NCBI GenBank assembly: GCA_937958695.1
Contig: CALGNK010000034.1
Location: 1-33,699 of the forward strand
From: an uncultured bacterium
GTDB lineage: Bacteria; DUMJ01
DNA: 33,699 nt
Reading direction: 5' to 3'
This document shows, piece after piece, positions 6,707 through 20,600 of the stretch. Positions within the stretch are counted from its first letter, which is position 1; every line of letters begins with the position of its first letter. The translations under genes and the position numbers were made by a program. The notes beneath the pieces were generated by a model that did not search any database, was not told the DNA's origin, and saw only the letters and a program-made list of their open reading frames with translations.

Positions 6707-9061
6707 ATGTTGGATATAACTGATAGTTTTATTTTTACTCCTAAAGAGATATCTGGTCCAGAGGCAAAGGCTATAAGAGTATTGGTTGAGGAGATAGAAA
6801 AGAGAACAGGTATTACACTTTCAGTTAAGTATGATCTTCCAGAGGATGGTAGACCTGTAATAGTAGTTGGAACAGAAAGATCTCTTAATGAGATAATAAA
6901 GCCCTATATTTCTCTATTAGAAACTTTAGAAAAACCTGGAAGAGAAGGGTATAGAATTATAGTAAAAGAAAGTGATCACCCGATTATCTTAATAATAGGA
7001 TCTGATCCGAGGGGAGTATTGTACGGAGTAGGGAAGTTTCTAAGGAAGCTGATCTGGGATAAGGGTTCTATAAAGATAAAGCCATTTAGCATTTCTAGTA
7101 CTCCTAAATATCCTCTTAGGGGCCATCAGCTAGGCTATAGGCCAAAGACTAATGCCTATGATGCTTGGAGTGTAGATCAGTTTGAGCAGTATATAAGGGA
7201 ATTGGCACTTTTTGGTGCTAACAGCATAGAGATACTACCTCCAAGGACCGATGATGCACCAACAAGTCCACATATGAAGGTTGATCCGTTAGGGATGATG
7301 ATAAAGCTCTCTGAGATAATAGACTCTTATGGATTAGATGTGTGGATATGGTATCCGAATATGTTTACGGAAGAAGAATATAAAGATGAGAATTGTAGGA
7401 AGAGAGAGATGGAAGAAAGGGAAGAGGTATTTAGTAAGTTAAAGAGGATAGATGCGGTATTTATACCAGGAGGAGATCCGGGGAGTTTAGATGCGAATAC
7501 GCTATTTGAATGGTCAGAGATAGTTTATGGGATTCTAAAGAAGTATCATCCTAAGGCAAAGATATGGCTTTCTCCACAGTGCTTTAGGCCAACAAAGAAG
7601 TGGTTGGAGGATTTTTATAACAATGTAAGAAAAGAGCCAGAATGGTTGGGTGGTATAGTATTCGGTCCTTGGATAAAGACAAAGTTGCCAGAATTGAGAG
7701 AGATTATTCCTAATAAGTATCCTATTAGACATTATCCTGATATTACACACAGTCTTCACTGTCAATACCCAGTTAAGGATTGGGATTTAGCATTTGCTAT
7801 AACCTTAGGGAGAGAATGTATAAATCCAAGACCTAAGGCAGAGAAACACATACATAATCTCTTTGCTCCTTATACAATTGGTAGTATTAGTTATTCAGAA
7901 GGTATAAACGATGATGTAAATAAATTTATCTGGAGCGACCAAGACTGGGATCCAGAGACTCCAGTGATAGAAACATTAAGAGATTATGCAAGACTCTTTA
8001 TAAGTCCCAAGTTTGTAGGAGAGATAGCACAAGGTATAATAGCGCTAGAAGAGAACTGGGAAGGACCATTATTGGTAAATGACAAGGTTGATGTAACGTT
8101 GAAGCAGTGGCAGGATATGGAGAGATCTGCCGATCAAACTGTCCTGAACAATTATAGATTTCAGATGTGTCTACTTAGGGCTTATTATGATGCCTATATA
8201 AGGAGGAGATTACTCTATGAGACAGAGTTAGAGAGACAAGCATTAGATGTTTTAGAAAAATCTAGGGAAATAGGATCTATAAAGGCTATAGAATTAGCAG
8301 AAGAGATATTAGAGAGGGCAAAGATACATCCTGTAGCAGAAGATTATAAGAATAGATGCTGGGAGTTAGCAGATGAATTATTCAAGAATATAGGGTCTCA
8401 GCTGTCTGTAGAGAAGTATAATGCTATAGCATGGGATAGAGGAGCATTTATGGATACTATAGATATGCCATTAAATAACTATAAATGGCTCAAGGTTCAG
8501 CTCTATAGGATTAAGAAGATGGAGAATGAAGAAGATAGAGATACAGCAATTTACAAGATTATCAATAGGACAAATCCTGGGCCTGGAGGATTCTATGACA
8601 ACTTAGGACATCCTACAAGTTTTAAGAGGATTCTAAGTGACAAGAAATGGGAAGATGATCCTGGCTATTTATCTTCCACCTGTGTTGTATTTACTCCATA
8701 CTTGTTACACCTTAATAAGGAATTGGAAGAACAGCTTGGAGGGATTCCTCTATCCTGGGTAAATAGTGTGGCAACTCTATATGACACGCCACTAGTCGTA
8801 AGATATGAGGATCTTGATCCAAATTCAGATTATAGGCTTAGAGTTACATATATAGGCGCTATTGGAGGGAAGGTAAGACTAATAGCGAATGAGAAATTTC
8901 TGATCCATGATTTTATAGATACTAAGCGAAAAGTGTTAACAGAAGAGTTTAAAGTATCTAAAGATATGATATCTAACGGAGAGTTGATTCTTAAATGGAT
9001 AGCTGATGACGGAGAGCGTGGCTGTGAAGTAGCAGAAATCTGGTTAATGAAGGAGGATTGA
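6707..9061 (+). CDS. Alpha-glucuronidase/hexosaminidase-like glycoside hydrolase
   Basis: The protein has 784 residues with no signal peptide, preceded by AGAGGTGAG. Residues 1-130 form the small alpha/beta domain that precedes the barrel in GH20, GH67 and related enzymes (GPEAKAIRVLVEEIEKRTGI at 17-36, DPRGVLYGVGKFLRKL at 100-115). Residues 135-450 look like a TIM barrel, with landmarks LRGHQLGYRPK (137-147), LFGANSIEILPPRTDD (168-183), FIPGGDPGSLD (252-262) and YSEGINDDVNKFIW (396-409). A helical section follows, and about 690-784 is a beta-rich, galactose-binding-like end. I cannot pin the CAZy family or name the catalytic acids. The best guess is an exo-glycosidase removing uronic acid or amino sugar from internalised oligosaccharides. 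It is followed, after one base, by an aldolase gene. Confidence 0.72.
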   Translation: MLDITDSFIFTPKEISGPEAKAIRVLVEEIEKRTGITLSVKYDLPEDGRPVIVVGTERSLNEIIKPYISLLETLEKPGREGYRIIVKESDHPIILIIGSDPRGVLYGVGKFLRKLIWDKGSIKIKPFSISSTPKYPLRGHQLGYRPKTNAYDAWSVDQFEQYIRELALFGANSIEILPPRTDDAPTSPHMKVDPLGMMIKLSEIIDSYGLDVWIWYPNMFTEEEYKDENCRKREMEEREEVFSKLKRIDAVFIPGGDPGSLDANTLFEWSEIVYGILKKYHPKAKIWLSPQCFRPTKKWLEDFYNNVRKEPEWLGGIVFGPWIKTKLPELREIIPNKYPIRHYPDITHSLHCQYPVKDWDLAFAITLGRECINPRPKAEKHIHNLFAPYTIGSISYSEGINDDVNKFIWSDQDWDPETPVIETLRDYARLFISPKFVGEIAQGIIALEENWEGPLLVNDKVDVTLKQWQDMERSADQTVLNNYRFQMCLLRAYYDAYIRRRLLYETELERQALDVLEKSREIGSIKAIELAEEILERAKIHPVAEDYKNRCWELADELFKNIGSQLSVEKYNAIAWDRGAFMDTIDMPLNNYKWLKVQLYRIKKMENEEDRDTAIYKIINRTNPGPGGFYDNLGHPTSFKRILSDKKWEDDPGYLSSTCVVFTPYLLHLNKELEEQLGGIPLSWVNSVATLYDTPLVVRYEDLDPNSDYRLRVTYIGAIGGKVRLIANEKFLIHDFIDTKRKVLTEEFKVSKDMISNGELILKWIADDGERGCEVAEIWLMKED

Positions 9062-15375: not shown

Positions 15376-16281
15376 CTATTCAAAAGCGCTATCTACTATA
15401 GCTTTTATTAACCCAGTATACCCTAATCCGTACTCTTCTGCCATCCTTGGCAGATAGCTATACCTAGGATGAAGGCCAGGTAATGTGTTTACATCTATTA
15501 CGTATGGAATTCCTTCCAAGTTAAGTCTTAGATCTATACGTGCATATCCTCTGCATCTCAGAATTCTATAGCTATTCAATGCTACATTAACCACCTTGCT
15601 ATAAGAACTTTCGCTATAAATCACAACCCGTTCATCATAAGCATCTAAAACCTCTTTTAATTTGCTAGTAAGAATTTGTTTAGCATCTATACAGGTTTTT
15701 AAAATACCAATTACAGTAGGAGTATTTTTGCCTATAATTCCTACGGTAAGCTCTTCTCCTCCTATAAAAGACGAGACTAGAATCTTTGTGAATTTGTTGG
15801 AGGATAAAGATTCGAGAGCCAGCTTAAGCTCCTTATAGTTCTCTGCTACAGATATATCAGAAATACCTTCGCTAGATCCGCCCAAAGCAGGTTTTACTAT
15901 TACAGGAAAAGGAGGTATATCACCTATTTTATCTATATCTGTAATTACTGAAAAAGGTGGGACAGGAATCCCATAAGATTTTAGAACAAGGCTAGTATAT
16001 TCTTTGTCCATAGCTAAAAATTGAGTATCAGCGGTAGAGCCAGTGAAAGGGATTCCCATCCACTCTAAGATTAATGGAACTAAGCATTGCAGTAAGCCAG
16101 TAGACGTATAGTAATTAAAGACCAAATCGTCTTTCCTTAACAAAGAAAGAAACTCTCTGTTAAAAGGAATAGACTCAACTTTATAATTAAGAGTCTTCAA
16201 CGCCTCTTCAATATGTTTTACTGCTCCAGCTGAAGTAATAGTATCCCTATCTTTATTGTAGACTAGAATACACCTTTGCAT
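15376..16281 (-). CDS. ATP-grasp ligase resembling D-alanine-D-alanine ligase
   Basis: The protein has 301 residues. The central and C-terminal ATP-grasp parts match Ddl closely: GSTADTQFLAMDKE (81-94), VIVKPALGGSSEGIS (127-141, ATP lysine K130 and glycine loop), EELTVGI (176-182), and metal ligands D250, D263 and N265 in YARIDLRL and IDVNTLPGL. The N-terminal ExxVS motif, whose glutamate binds the first D-alanine in Ddl, is missing; TITSAGAVKHIEEA stands in its place. The reaction is therefore probably ATP-driven amide or peptide bond formation on a different amino acid. It overlaps the upstream mutase-like gene by 29 bases, indicating translational coupling. A true cell-wall Ddl is less likely given the operon partners. 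Confidence 0.85.
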   Translation of the reverse strand: MQRCILVYNKDRDTITSAGAVKHIEEALKTLNYKVESIPFNREFLSLLRKDDLVFNYYTSTGLLQCLVPLILEWMGIPFTGSTADTQFLAMDKEYTSLVLKSYGIPVPPFSVITDIDKIGDIPPFPVIVKPALGGSSEGISDISVAENYKELKLALESLSSNKFTKILVSSFIGGEELTVGIIGKNTPTVIGILKTCIDAKQILTSKLKEVLDAYDERVVIYSESSYSKVVNVALNSYRILRCRGYARIDLRLNLEGIPYVIDVNTLPGLHPRYSYLPRMAEEYGLGYTGLIKAIVDSAFE

Positions 16282-17893
16282 ATTTGATTATTCCCTCTAT
16301 TCTTTCCTCTTCACTTATAGGTATTCCGTTGTCATTAATAGCTTCACAGCCACCGTTTATCATTCTCGTTTTAATCCTACCACAAGCATAAGGATTGCCT
16401 TTAAGATGTGGTGCATCCAAAAGACCAATTTTTATAGCTTTTGCAATGACATTTGGATCAATTAATGGATCGCTATCTTTAGTCCCTAAACTTTTTATCA
16501 CTGAGATAAGAAGCTTTGCCTCTTTTACTAAGTGTTCCTTCCTGGCTAAAACTTCCTCATCTGCTAGAAGGTTAGGAAACCCTAGACTAAAGTTACGTAT
16601 AACTCCTTGGGCTATCTTACAACTCTCTATAACATCATTTGGATTAGCTGCATGATCCCCTTCTGAAAATCCAACTACGTGAACAATATGTGGTGATAAT
16701 ATAAGGCCAAGCTGAATAGAGCTAGCTAACTGCCCTTTCGCTATTAGCATATCGGATGATAGGCTGGCTAGTCCAGTCCTAATCTGCCTGTATATAGTAA
16801 AGTTTTCATCTTCTAAAGAGTTAATAAGTTCTAGTATTGCTAGCATTTTCCCTAGATCTGCTTTGCCTGATGTGGATGGGGGGGTATTTAACATAAGTTG
16901 GGCTATATAATGCCTTACCCCCATAGCTTTTGCATTATACGCAGCTAAAAATGCAGAAGTAACTGTAATTACATCAGGTGCATCTCTTAATCCCCAATGG
17001 TGGGCCTCGTTAACCTCTACTGGAATACCTCTCTCTGCGTGCCAACGCATAGCCGATTGGTTTTCTTTAATAGCTTCTACTAACGTTCTATCGGAACGTT
17101 TATCTAATACACTATACCAACATAAAGGGATAGCAGCCCAAGCATTCTTTATTGTCTCTTGAAGCATCTCTGCCCATTTTATAATATCTCTAGTGCCACT
17201 ATAGCATCTAAGCAAAGGGAAATTTCCCGTTCTTGAAACAGAATATATTCTCTCTAGATCTTCTTTACTTCTAATAGGAACCCCACCAGCTCCTGTCAAT
17301 TCATCTTTCATCTCTTCTGGTCTAAAGAAACTTTCTTGAGCATTTTGATCAGGACCTATAGAGATTACATCTAAAACCTTTGCTTCTGCTATTTCCCTTA
17401 CTCCTTCGATAGTATCTTCAAGATTAGGTAGACCAAAATGATGCCTTAATATAGGGTAAGGACTGTTAACTCTTATTCTTTCTAGAAGAGTTTGGGGAAA
17501 AGAGAGTTTATGAATTACCCCCTCACCTTTCAGATAAGCTACTACTTCTATAGGGGACTCTCCACCAGTGAATATAGCATCAAATATTTTAAATTCTTCT
17601 GCTACTTTAGCTACTGAAGGCGTGGTTCCAAGAATAAATTTAACAGAAAGATTTCTATTCTTAATATCCTCTTTTAATCTAGAAAATATATTCTTAGCCA
17701 CCTCAGGTGTAAGTCTAAAACTTACCCCAACAATGTCTGGCTTGTATTCCTCTATTTTTAAAAACAATTCATCTACACTGAGAGAAGTTCCTAAGAATAT
17801 AGTTTCATATCCTAATCTTTCTGCTATATTCAAGAAATTGAAAATCCCTGCATTATGAATACAGGGCTCTAAGGAACAAGCAACTATCCTCAT
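16253..17893 (-). CDS. Cobalamin-dependent mutase-like protein (B12 domain fused to glutamate-mutase E-like barrel)
   Basis: The protein has 546 residues. Residues 1-125 look like a B12-binding Rossmann domain: CIHNAG at 11-16 (DxHxxG with Cys replacing Asp but the cobalt-ligand histidine and glycine kept), GVSFRL at 56-61 (SxL region) and FTGGESP at 108-114 (GG motif). Residues about 150-546 resemble glutamate mutase (methylaspartate mutase) subunit E. Parallels are FPLLRCYSGTRD (225-236), VTSAFLAAYNAKAMGVRHYI (311-330), GFSEGDHAANPNDVIES (408-424) and the end region DAPHLKGNPYACGR. In classic glutamate mutases the two parts are separate subunits. The residues around the substrate-binding glutamate are not obviously kept, so the substrate may not be glutamate. 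It lies 4 bases after the dehydrogenase gene. Confidence 0.78.
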   Translation of the reverse strand: MRIVACSLEPCIHNAGIFNFLNIAERLGYETIFLGTSLSVDELFLKIEEYKPDIVGVSFRLTPEVAKNIFSRLKEDIKNRNLSVKFILGTTPSVAKVAEEFKIFDAIFTGGESPIEVVAYLKGEGVIHKLSFPQTLLERIRVNSPYPILRHHFGLPNLEDTIEGVREIAEAKVLDVISIGPDQNAQESFFRPEEMKDELTGAGGVPIRSKEDLERIYSVSRTGNFPLLRCYSGTRDIIKWAEMLQETIKNAWAAIPLCWYSVLDKRSDRTLVEAIKENQSAMRWHAERGIPVEVNEAHHWGLRDAPDVITVTSAFLAAYNAKAMGVRHYIAQLMLNTPPSTSGKADLGKMLAILELINSLEDENFTIYRQIRTGLASLSSDMLIAKGQLASSIQLGLILSPHIVHVVGFSEGDHAANPNDVIESCKIAQGVIRNFSLGFPNLLADEEVLARKEHLVKEAKLLISVIKSLGTKDSDPLIDPNVIAKAIKIGLLDAPHLKGNPYACGRIKTRMINGGCEAINDNGIPISEEERIEGIIKYAKVYSSLQ

Positions 17894-17897
17894 ATTA

Positions 17898-18992
17898 TCA
17901 CTCCCCTTCCATAACTAGCCTGATAATCTCTTTTACCGAAAGACCTGCTAGGCCTAACTTATCTACCGTTCTCCCTTTCTCCCAGTAATTACAGTTATGC
18001 ATTATATTAGCTAGATGAATGATAGATTTAATCGTTGGAGTAGGGACTCCAAGCAAATCTCCCAGAGAGGCTATAGGGACAAGGCTCATAGGAACATCTT
18101 CTTCTATATATCTTGTATCAAGAGTAGGAGGAGCCATAATACCTTTATACCCATCATTATTTTGTATAGCTTCATATAGCGTTTTACCTACAGCATCATA
18201 CGCTATATAAAGCCATTCTCTAGCGGTAAGACTTCTTATTCCAAGGGCAGAAGCAACTGCAACCCTTTCCTTGTCCATTTCCTCTAAGACTAGAGCAATA
18301 GAAGGAGTTATGCCCTCCACATAATACTGGAAGTTACCCCTTGTGCTTTCGATACGGCTAGCATTTAATATGGTTAGCGCTGGATGAAAAATAGCGCCTA
18401 TATTATCTAAGCTAGTATTTAGCACATTATCACCTGGAATAAATTGGGGTAAAGCTAATTTCAATCTATTAATTATCTCTGTTGTTCTATATGCAGGGAG
18501 TGCCGCTACTGGGATCGCATTTTTTATTCTGAAAATTCTCACCTGCCCAGGATTTTCAGACCTCGATGCATAAATAAAAGTCTGAGCCTCTGCTATTAGG
18601 ATATCCTTCTTAATACCGTTCTTTTTTAGAATATTCTTTACTTCTAGTGCCCCACCCGTCCTTCCAGGATTTAGAACTATCTTTTGACCATCCTCCAAAT
18701 AAGGAGCCATTGCTTCAACAAGAGGTCTATGTGCATAAGCAGGGACAACAACCATAAGTATTTCTCTCCCTTTGATAGCTTCTTTGATATCACTTGTAAT
18801 TAGACTAAGTTTAGCAAATCCTTTAACTTCTCCCTCAACATTTATACCCCCTAGCGCTTGGATAGGCTTAATACGAGCAAAAGTCCTATTATATAGGCTT
18901 ACATCAAAACCAAGAAGAGACAAATGAGCTGCTAGAGCTTGGCCTCCGTGACCTGCTCCCAATACACAAAAAGTAGGAGTATTAAGATTCAT
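17898..18992 (-). CDS. Opine-type (octopine/nopaline) NAD(P) dehydrogenase family protein
   Basis: The protein has 364 residues, matching the family. The N-terminal Rossmann fold carries GAGHGGQA at 12-19. The C-terminal octopine-dehydrogenase domain has the catalytic histidine H203 in IFHPALTILNASR and aspartate D301 in EEDVPMSLVP, the expected dyad. Family members reductively join a 2-keto acid to an amino acid, or run the reverse; the substrates cannot be read here. The gene is first in a three-gene operon under a c-di-AMP riboswitch. AAGGGAG precedes the ATG by about 9 bases and lies just after the riboswitch. An amino-acid-derived product fits the ATP-grasp and mutase-like partners. Confidence 0.88.
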   Translation of the reverse strand: MNLNTPTFCVLGAGHGGQALAAHLSLLGFDVSLYNRTFARIKPIQALGGINVEGEVKGFAKLSLITSDIKEAIKGREILMVVVPAYAHRPLVEAMAPYLEDGQKIVLNPGRTGGALEVKNILKKNGIKKDILIAEAQTFIYASRSENPGQVRIFRIKNAIPVAALPAYRTTEIINRLKLALPQFIPGDNVLNTSLDNIGAIFHPALTILNASRIESTRGNFQYYVEGITPSIALVLEEMDKERVAVASALGIRSLTAREWLYIAYDAVGKTLYEAIQNNDGYKGIMAPPTLDTRYIEEDVPMSLVPIASLGDLLGVPTPTIKSIIHLANIMHNCNYWEKGRTVDKLGLAGLSVKEIIRLVMEGE

Positions 18993-19008
18993 AAAATCAC
19001 TCCCTTCT

Positions 19009-19122
19009 ATGCTTACGGGGTTAGCTGACGGGTTCGGGAAGAAGGGTTCCCTATCTACAAGAAGTAGAATTCACCCCACAGTTTGGGTCCCCCGTTTTCT
19101 CTCTATGAGAGAAATTCAGCAT
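19009..19122 (-). ncRNA. c-di-AMP riboswitch (ydaO/yuaA type)
   Basis: Read on the - strand, the leader contains the hallmark blocks of the ydaO aptamer in order: GCTGAA, CGGGGGACCCAAAC, GGGGTGAATT, a GGGAA/TTCCC hairpin, CCCGAACCCGTCAGCTAACC and CGTAAGC. The outer helix P1 is formed by ATGCT (19118-19122) and AGCAT (19009-19013). The element begins about 12 bases after a good promoter -10 box and ends 2 bases before the Shine-Dalgarno region of the dehydrogenase gene. No terminator lies between, so translational control is likelier. These aptamers bind cyclic di-AMP, usually turning genes off at high ligand. Identification is by motif recognition, not a covariance search. Confidence 0.9.
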
Positions 19123-19133
19123 TCCTTAATAAA

Positions 19134-19163
19134 AGTATATCAACGGGATAGAAGAATTGTCAA
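19134..19163 (-). promoter_or_regulatory. Promoter for the riboswitch operon
   Basis: On the - strand a consensus TTGACA (19158-19163) and TATACT (19134-19139) are separated by 18 bases. Transcription would start near 19127, immediately before the riboswitch. Confidence 0.85.
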
Positions 19164-19323: not shown

Positions 19324-19746
19324 TTGGTAGAGAGGGATAAACCTAGAGTATATCTATCTGTTCCGATAGTAAATTTTTACAATTCAGAGCTTACTTCTAT
19401 CTTAGGTAGAATCTTAGCTGATCTAGGATTTGATATCTCTTCTCCCTGGGTTCTCTCAGGGAAGGATGTTGGAAAGACCCCTGAGGAGATATTCTACAGA
19501 GATATAGGTGCGGTAAAAGAGTCTGATATAATACTAGCCGAAATTTCAAAGCCTAGTCATGGTGTAGGTATGGAGATTATGCAAGCGTATATAAGTAATA
19601 AAAAGATTATTCTAGTTGCTAGAGAGGAATCGAATATATCTTTTCTTGTAAGAGGAATTCCGAATGCAGTTTTAGTGAAATATAGAGATTACAGGGATTT
19701 GGAAGAGAAATTGAGAAAAACTTTAGAGGAGATGATATCAGTATGA
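19324..19746 (+). CDS. Nucleoside 2-deoxyribosyltransferase-like protein
   Basis: The protein has 140 residues, starting at a TTG with AGGAGG (19312-19317) 6 bases upstream. It resembles the nucleoside 2-deoxyribosyltransferase / DNPH1 (Rcl) family: N-terminal VYLSVPI strand (9-15), RDIGAVKESDIILAEIS (59-75) and the catalytic-loop SHGVGMEI (78-85) with candidate nucleophile E84. These enzymes transfer or hydrolyse the deoxyribose-base bond of (deoxy)nucleosides or deoxynucleotides in the cytosol. The length matches the hydrolase-like branch. Its last codon overlaps the next gene as ATGA. It probably shares the tRNA promoter; a role in nucleotide clean-up is inference. Confidence 0.82.
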   Translation: MVERDKPRVYLSVPIVNFYNSELTSILGRILADLGFDISSPWVLSGKDVGKTPEEIFYRDIGAVKESDIILAEISKPSHGVGMEIMQAYISNKKIILVAREESNISFLVRGIPNAVLVKYRDYRDLEEKLRKTLEEMISV

Positions 19747-20600
19747 AGTTTGGTGTTTATTCTCCATTTTCTCATGAGATTGTTGATCTTTTAAAAGAGG
19801 TAGGTGCAAGTAGTATTGAGTTAGCCTGCTGGCCAGGAAGCTATACAGATGTAGAAGCCATGCTTACTAATGAAAGTAGATATGAAGAGGTTATTTCTAA
19901 AATTATTTCTAAAAGCATTGAAATCTCTGCTTTAGGATTCTATTCAAACCATTTAGACCCTGATTTATCTAAGAGAGAGGCGAATAATAAATATCTATTA
20001 AAGCTTATAGACCTTGCTAACAAGATGAATGTAAAAGTAGTAAGTACATTTGCTGGTAGAATCCCAGATAAAGACATTCCTGAGAATATACCTATTTTTA
20101 AAGAGGTCTTTACACCTATAGTGAAGTATGCAGAGGATAAAGGAGTAAAGATAGCTATAGAAAACTGTCCAATGATGCATGGTTTTCCTTTTAGAGGAAT
20201 TAATATTGCATATACCCCTAGGGCTTGGGAATTAATGTTTGACGCAATCCCTTCTCCTAACCTTGGACTTGAGTTCGATCCAAGTCATCTGTATTGGCAA
20301 CAGATAGATTATATAGATGCTATATACAAGTTTGGTGATAAGATATTCCATGTTCATGCCAAAGATACTGAAATCCTATATGATAAACTTGCTGAAGTAG
20401 GTATCTATAGTACTGGCTGGTGGCGTTATAGAATTCCAGGTTGGGGAGAGATAGATTGGTTAAAAGTAGTATCTGCCCTTATGGATGTAGGATACGAAGG
20501 AGCTATAGATATAGAGCATGAGGACCCTGTCTTTTCTGGCCCAAGGGCTAAAGAAGGAATAATATTAGGATTAAGACATCTTGCTCAATATATAATTTAG
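19743..20600 (+). CDS. Sugar phosphate isomerase/epimerase-like TIM-barrel protein
   Basis: The protein has 285 residues and belongs to the xylose isomerase-like TIM barrel (AP endonuclease 2) superfamily. Expected divalent-metal ligands are visible: E140 in IAIENCPM, D179 and H182 in EFDPSHL, H203/H205 in FHVHAKD, and E258 near the end in DIEHEDP. WRYRIPGWGEIDW (227-239) is a common feature of the sugar isomerase/epimerase branch. Substrates in this family are too varied to assign. The start is fixed by a 4-base ATGA overlap with the deoxyribosyltransferase-like gene, so the two are cotranslated. The gene converges on ribF with 2 bases between stops, and no terminator stands out. Confidence 0.85.
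   Translation: MKFGVYSPFSHEIVDLLKEVGASSIELACWPGSYTDVEAMLTNESRYEEVISKIISKSIEISALGFYSNHLDPDLSKREANNKYLLKLIDLANKMNVKVVSTFAGRIPDKDIPENIPIFKEVFTPIVKYAEDKGVKIAIENCPMMHGFPFRGINIAYTPRAWELMFDAIPSPNLGLEFDPSHLYWQQIDYIDAIYKFGDKIFHVHAKDTEILYDKLAEVGIYSTGWWRYRIPGWGEIDWLKVVSALMDVGYEGAIDIEHEDPVFSGPRAKEGIILGLRHLAQYII

Follow-up and report, generated by a model that had tools for sequence, protein, structure and literature searches.

A c-di-AMP riboswitch ahead of an opine dehydrogenase, B12 mutase-like and ATP-grasp operon: a candidate pathway to a compatible solute

In 2009, Zhang, Rodionov, Gelfand and Gladyshev (PMC2667541) predicted a B12-dependent family with an N-terminal COG5012-like domain, always encoded beside an octopine/nopaline dehydrogenase (pfam02317) and with a D-Ala:D-Ala ligase or an asparagine synthase nearby; the family was described from 11 bacteria, with no function and no riboswitch. 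The locus described here was assigned to that family by architecture and gene context: it has the N-terminal B12-binding domain and the adjoining pfam02317 gene. To the published description we add archaeal members, a barrel resembling that of glutamate mutase, and an association with riboswitches for c-di-AMP and other ion-related signals. A sequence-only reading of this DNA had known of no described pathway with this trio of enzymes. That remains so for a pathway or function, neither of which the 2009 study gave, but the association of the genes was already on record there. In our literature search, c-di-AMP control of this B12 family was not found named; the main regulon surveys lay outside that search, and an earlier mention is possible.

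A described regulatory parallel comes from Dehalobacter, in which tandem Na+/c-di-AMP riboswitches precede a gene for a precursor of N-epsilon-acetyl-beta-lysine, and the c-di-AMP riboswitch turns this osmolyte gene off (PMC9337991). The likeness to our proposal lies in the repression of an osmolyte gene via a c-di-AMP riboswitch. The osmolyte is known in that system, whereas the mutase considered here is B12-dependent and its product is one that we only infer.

The window (the whole 33,699-nucleotide stretch of DNA from an uncultured bacterium that was analyzed) carries, on its minus strand from 19163 to 15376, one transcription unit comprising a promoter-like site, an aptamer and three coupled genes. 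Its features, together with one found at related loci, are as follows.

19134–19163, minus strand: promoter-like site, TTGACA-18-TATACT, the -10 extended by a preceding TG; 11 of 12 consensus positions
18995–19131, minus strand: c-di-AMP riboswitch aptamer (ydaO/yuaA type, RF00379); 107.4 bits, full model, aligned with 18 relatives that likewise precede this operon
19040–19046, minus strand: hairpin loop CCCUUCU, 5' pseudoknot strand of the aptamer; complementary to 19008–19002, 5 of 7 pairs changed on both sides in 19 sequences
19000–19008, minus strand: AGAAGGGAG, which forms the 3' side of the pseudoknot and overlaps the Shine-Dalgarno sequence; from the sequence and pair counts
17898–18992, minus strand: opine dehydrogenase (CENDH type), 364 aa; PF02317, E 4.9e-50; 1bg6, E 2.2e-87
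16253–17893, minus strand: B12-binding domain (residues 2–118) plus glutamate-mutase-fold barrel, 546 aa, with a CxHxxG cobalamin motif; PF02310, alignments, AlphaFold model, Foldseek
15376–16281, minus strand: Ddl-like ATP-grasp ligase without Ddl substrate signatures, 301 aa; PF07478, E 4.5e-29; alignment with the genome's canonical Ddl
Related loci L035, L036, L039, L044, L047, L061, L065, L075, L099 and L108: AsnB-like protein without the glutaminase Cys, SGGLDS-type loop intact, near the mutase in many phyla

The sequence-only reading had claimed a strong promoter, and the site is near consensus; its view of the three genes as one unit agrees with their spacing: a 4-nt gap separates the first two, and the second and third overlap by 29 nt. 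The three enzyme classes it had named were likewise recovered as Pfam matches, in order Octopine_DH (E 5e-50), the B12-binding domain (3e-10) and Dala_Dala_lig_C (5e-29). We refer to the dehydrogenase as ODH, to the B12-binding mutase-fold protein as MUT, and to ODH-MUT as the pair. A fasciclin-domain gene begins 114 nt past the operon with a promoter-like site of its own and is probably separate from it. Elsewhere in the window, a plus-strand ORF at 19324–19746 resembles nucleoside 2-deoxyribosyltransferases just below the Pfam cut-off (28.6 vs. 28.8) and overlaps a xylose-isomerase-like TIM-barrel gene at 19743–20600.

Is the leader a genuine member of the ydaO class? The sequence-only reading had asserted as much and asked for a covariance search, which, when run, returned a strong hit: RF00379 matches 19131–18995 on the minus strand with 107.4 bits, where 38 is the gathering score (E 7e-25; model positions 1–134, complete), the only such match in the 2.09-Mb genome. 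Among the 19 aligned aptamers, P1 is 100% paired; for the loop-to-tail pseudoknot the figure is 74% of cells, and five of its seven pairs have changed on both sides. The same complementarity, and a pseudoknot, occur in a solved ydaO RNA (PMC5393176). The genome also contains a diadenylate cyclase gene. In one sister genome (G001) the operon and the aptamer are both present, and in another (G002) the mutase and operon are absent, as is the aptamer.

The window's RNA thus has the complete consensus and the pseudoknot of its class. It differs in that the pseudoknot strand directly overlaps the Shine-Dalgarno sequence, leaving no space for a terminator, whereas terminator-like hairpins follow the aptamer in Firmicutes loci. 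The known regulons of the class cover K+, osmolytes and the cell wall, and the target operon here is unlike the genes named in the papers that we read. The Shine-Dalgarno AAGGGAG lies 7 nt ahead of the ATG at 18992 and overlaps the tail strand AGAAGGG (19008–19002), so an occupied aptamer would block ribosome access there. Based on this overlap, the switch is probably translational and OFF when the predicted ligand, c-di-AMP, is bound; the direction of regulation is taken from the riboswitch class. A nested fold of the window's RNA puts the Shine-Dalgarno and the first part of the ORF into one hairpin, and the expression platform may therefore be more complex.

The closest solved relative of ODH is N-(1-D-carboxyethyl)-L-norvaline dehydrogenase (CENDH, 1bg6), to which it is homologous over its full length (E 2e-87). 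Residues H203, R294 and D299 are near-invariant in 73 sequences and align with the His, Arg and Asp of octopine dehydrogenase that we take to be its catalytic residues. Gene 1 accordingly shows both the Pfam match and the conserved His/Arg/Asp expected of an Octopine_DH member. It differs from 1bg6 in being encoded beside a mutase.

The C-terminal half of MUT gave no Pfam match, even at E 10. An AlphaFold model built with 52 relatives (mean pLDDT 93.6) was more informative: Foldseek placed glutamate mutase at the top (E 4.8e-17; TM 0.58/0.65, to the GlmE TIM-barrel), followed by ornithine and lysine aminomutases and acyl-CoA mutases. PF06368 matches some of the relatives weakly. MUT thus has the barrel fold and the cobalamin domain of GlmS/GlmE, but it carries both on a single chain that starts with the B12 domain, and has CxHxxG in place of DxHxxG. 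Within this motif, His13 (the B12 ligand) and Gly16 do not vary, and almost every sequence has Cys at the position usually held by Asp. A BtuR-type adenosyltransferase, for AdoCbl, is encoded in the genome; the PduO type was sought and is absent. No relatives of MUT were present in the plasmid and viral collections searched.

Does MUT act on glutamate? In GlmE, the roles of the claw residues have been described, and E171 touches the glutamate amine (PMC10947579). We aligned MUT by profile (hhalign) with true GlmE sequences from some of the same genomes. In this alignment, whose low probability makes the correspondences tentative, R66 becomes H152 and R149 becomes Y231, the position of R100 is uncertain, and E171 has no counterpart; the arginine claw (R66, R100, R149) and E171 are thus not found together in MUT. 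With claw residues replaced and E171 missing, glutamate is not likely to be the substrate. An N-substituted substrate, an opine for instance, would go well with the lost amine contact, but this is a guess.

The window's ligase shares with D-alanine–D-alanine ligase the ATP-grasp core and the C-terminal domain, but it lacks the Ddl substrate motifs. Its best NCBIfam Ddl model scores 144.9 against a cut-off of 243, and SxEREVSL, HGxxGEDG and FYDYxAKY are missing when it is aligned with the genome's own Ddl, a separate canonical enzyme (G000:C25) that has all three in close form.

The sequence-only reading had also called for a genome-neighborhood search for the trio, and this search found the genes together in many other genomes. 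Of 290 genomes, 13 (the window's own included) had a substantial match, each with the dehydrogenase beside the mutase. A scan of 11.3 million contigs yielded at least 580 relatives, of which the best 80 were examined. These come from Bacillota, Armatimonadota, Aminicenantes, Ignavibacteria, Planctomycetota, Gemmatimonadota, others and several archaeal groups (Thorarchaeota, Lokiarchaeota, Theionarchaea and Methanomicrobia), the names being those of record titles, mostly of metagenome bins. The dehydrogenase adjoins the mutase in 79 of these 80 loci; by simple ORF calls on 80 loci, the window among them, the two are direct neighbors in 74 and on one strand in 73, and they usually overlap, with a median gap of -4 nt. 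The identity matrices of MUT and ODH correlate with r 0.65 across 74 loci, a value that includes shared ancestry. In five Aminicenantes bins (L063, L067, L068, L082 and L088), genes for TldD/TldE-type (PmbA) metallopeptidases follow the pair.

What accompanies the pair varies. Within four genes of it, an AsnB-like protein occurs in 17 loci and a non-Ddl ATP-grasp protein in eight loci plus the window, with almost none of either elsewhere in the 10-kb flanks. No locus has both, although this non-overlap alone is not significant. Not all ATP-grasp neighbors could be treated as one enzyme, since those of L037 and L083 have true Ddl motifs and are divergently transcribed. The N-terminal glutaminase Cys is missing in 10 of 16 AsnB-like copies, which retain the SGGLDS-type loop; in these, as in the ATP-grasp enzymes, either ammonia or a substrate amine would serve, and they are possibly amine-using or lactam-forming synthetases. 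Judged by these homologies, the third enzyme would be an ATP-using, amide-forming one of two unrelated types, ATP-grasp and AsnB-like. In about two-thirds of the 80 loci no ligase lies within four genes, and the third step may thus be optional or encoded elsewhere. In the archaeal bin of L047, a D-glutamate cyclase-like gene (6989–8074, plus strand) sits between the mutase and the AsnB-like gene.

In 20 of the 80 loci (Thermoanaerobacterales, Thermosediminibacterales, Tissierellia, Fermentithermobacillaceae and Armatimonadota), an aptamer with the ydaO core immediately precedes the operon; most of the 80 have no recognized riboswitch. Four gene orders follow these aptamers: ODH-MUT; ODH-MUT-AsnB; ATP-grasp-ODH-MUT (L069, L100); and AsnB-ODH-MUT (L097). 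The window adds a further order, ODH-MUT-ATP-grasp. The switch goes with the pathway and not with a single gene.

Ion-related riboswitches of other classes occupy the same place at two single loci. One Desantisbacteria genome contains exactly two nhaA-I riboswitches, both at one locus (L075:8767 and L075:13459, plus strand) and each with a terminator-like hairpin ahead of its gene. The first lies ahead of ODH-MUT, behind which come a putative CBS-like ORF and a Na+/H+ exchanger; the other, 4.7 kb on, had been considered as an antiporter switch, a reading rejected because the gene that it precedes is a Cys-less AsnB-like one. Through this shared regulation the amide-forming gene is tied to the pair, and the two together to monovalent cations. 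Li+ is the ligand of nhaA-I RNAs, and terminator-bearing variants sense Na+ (PMC9646797). They are not a general feature, as only Desantisbacteria among 50 genomes rose above the cut-off. In a Bacillota bin, a fluoride riboswitch (L104:8679–8740, plus strand; 50.3 bits) lies about 117 nt upstream of ODH-MUT and is followed by a terminator-like hairpin. Save for this one, an Rfam scan of 34 further loci found no other riboswitch at the operon start.

We consider it somewhat more likely than not that the operon directs the c-di-AMP-repressed synthesis of a small organic compatible solute, opine-derived and amidated or lactamized. At high c-di-AMP, with ample K+ and in the absence of osmotic stress, the ligand-stabilized pseudoknot would hide the Shine-Dalgarno and keep translation off; once c-di-AMP falls, the operon would be translated. 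The dehydrogenase, judging from its homologs, would then form an opine (an N-carboxyalkyl amino acid) by reductive condensation of an amino acid with a 2-oxo acid, and the AdoCbl-dependent mutase would rearrange a carbon skeleton, either that of the opine or that of its amino-acid moiety. Finally, the ATP-grasp ligase, or the AsnB-like synthetase in other lineages, would activate a carboxylate and form an amide or lactam, lowering the net charge such that the product could accumulate as an osmolyte. We infer the substrates, the product and the order of steps. The osmolyte idea, already raised by the sequence-only reading, gains from the archaeal members, from the nhaA-I and fluoride riboswitches in the same place, and from the published control of another osmolyte gene by c-di-AMP.

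That reading had offered a wall precursor as its other branch, and this branch fared poorly. AsnB-type enzymes amidate diaminopimelate in some bacteria, and the window's ligase is Ddl-like. Wall genes, too, are under c-di-AMP riboswitches (PMC7266159, PMC9960051). Under such control, the operon might make or modify a peptidoglycan precursor, for example an atypical dipeptide or an amino acid in amidated form. The archaeal records of the pair, however, come from groups that lack peptidoglycan, and a canonical Ddl is encoded separately in the genome; both facts argue against a wall role, as does the lack of Ddl signatures in the operon's ligase, and we regard this explanation as unlikely. Much the same low probability attaches to a catabolic route, in which ODH would cleave an amino acid that is opine-like or N-alkylated, and the carbon skeleton would pass through the mutase into central metabolism, much as it does through glutamate mutase in fermenting cells. 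That the nearest fold is this fermentation enzyme, and that many loci come from anaerobes by their record titles, would fit such a route. Yet the third genes encode ATP-consuming ligases, no lyase, dehydratase or uptake gene recurs beside the pair, and control by c-di-AMP and ion riboswitches suits stress more than nutrient use. Opine dehydrogenases also make staphylopine-type metallophores, which raises the thought of an opine-type chelator or other secreted metabolite. We find this quite improbable: no synthase, exporter or metal-importer cluster recurs beside the pair, the dehydrogenase is CENDH-like, and the riboswitch classes indicate osmolarity and ions other than transition metals.

The preferred reading, synthesis of a compatible solute, has a bolder form: an undescribed solute class, a skeleton-rearranged opine in amide or lactam form, made with a B12 radical enzyme in bacteria and archaea under c-di-AMP and ion-related riboswitches. 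This we put forward tentatively, as a possibility that falls somewhat short of even. New relative to the 2009 description are the adjacency in 79 of 80 loci from bacteria and archaea, the c-di-AMP aptamers at a quarter of the loci, the nhaA-I pair of Desantisbacteria and the nature of the third enzyme, an ATP-grasp or an AsnB-like synthetase that often lacks its glutaminase Cys. A B12 family predicted then, and still without a function as far as we found, thereby acquires a regulatory link suggestive of osmotic or ion stress. The riboswitch-operon unit is also present in cultured Thermoanaerobacter, Caldanaerobacter and Thermoanaerobacterium, so metabolite profiles from low- and high-salt cultures offer a direct way to look for the product. 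If the proposal is true, it would add both a new class of osmolyte and a new role for cobalamin chemistry.
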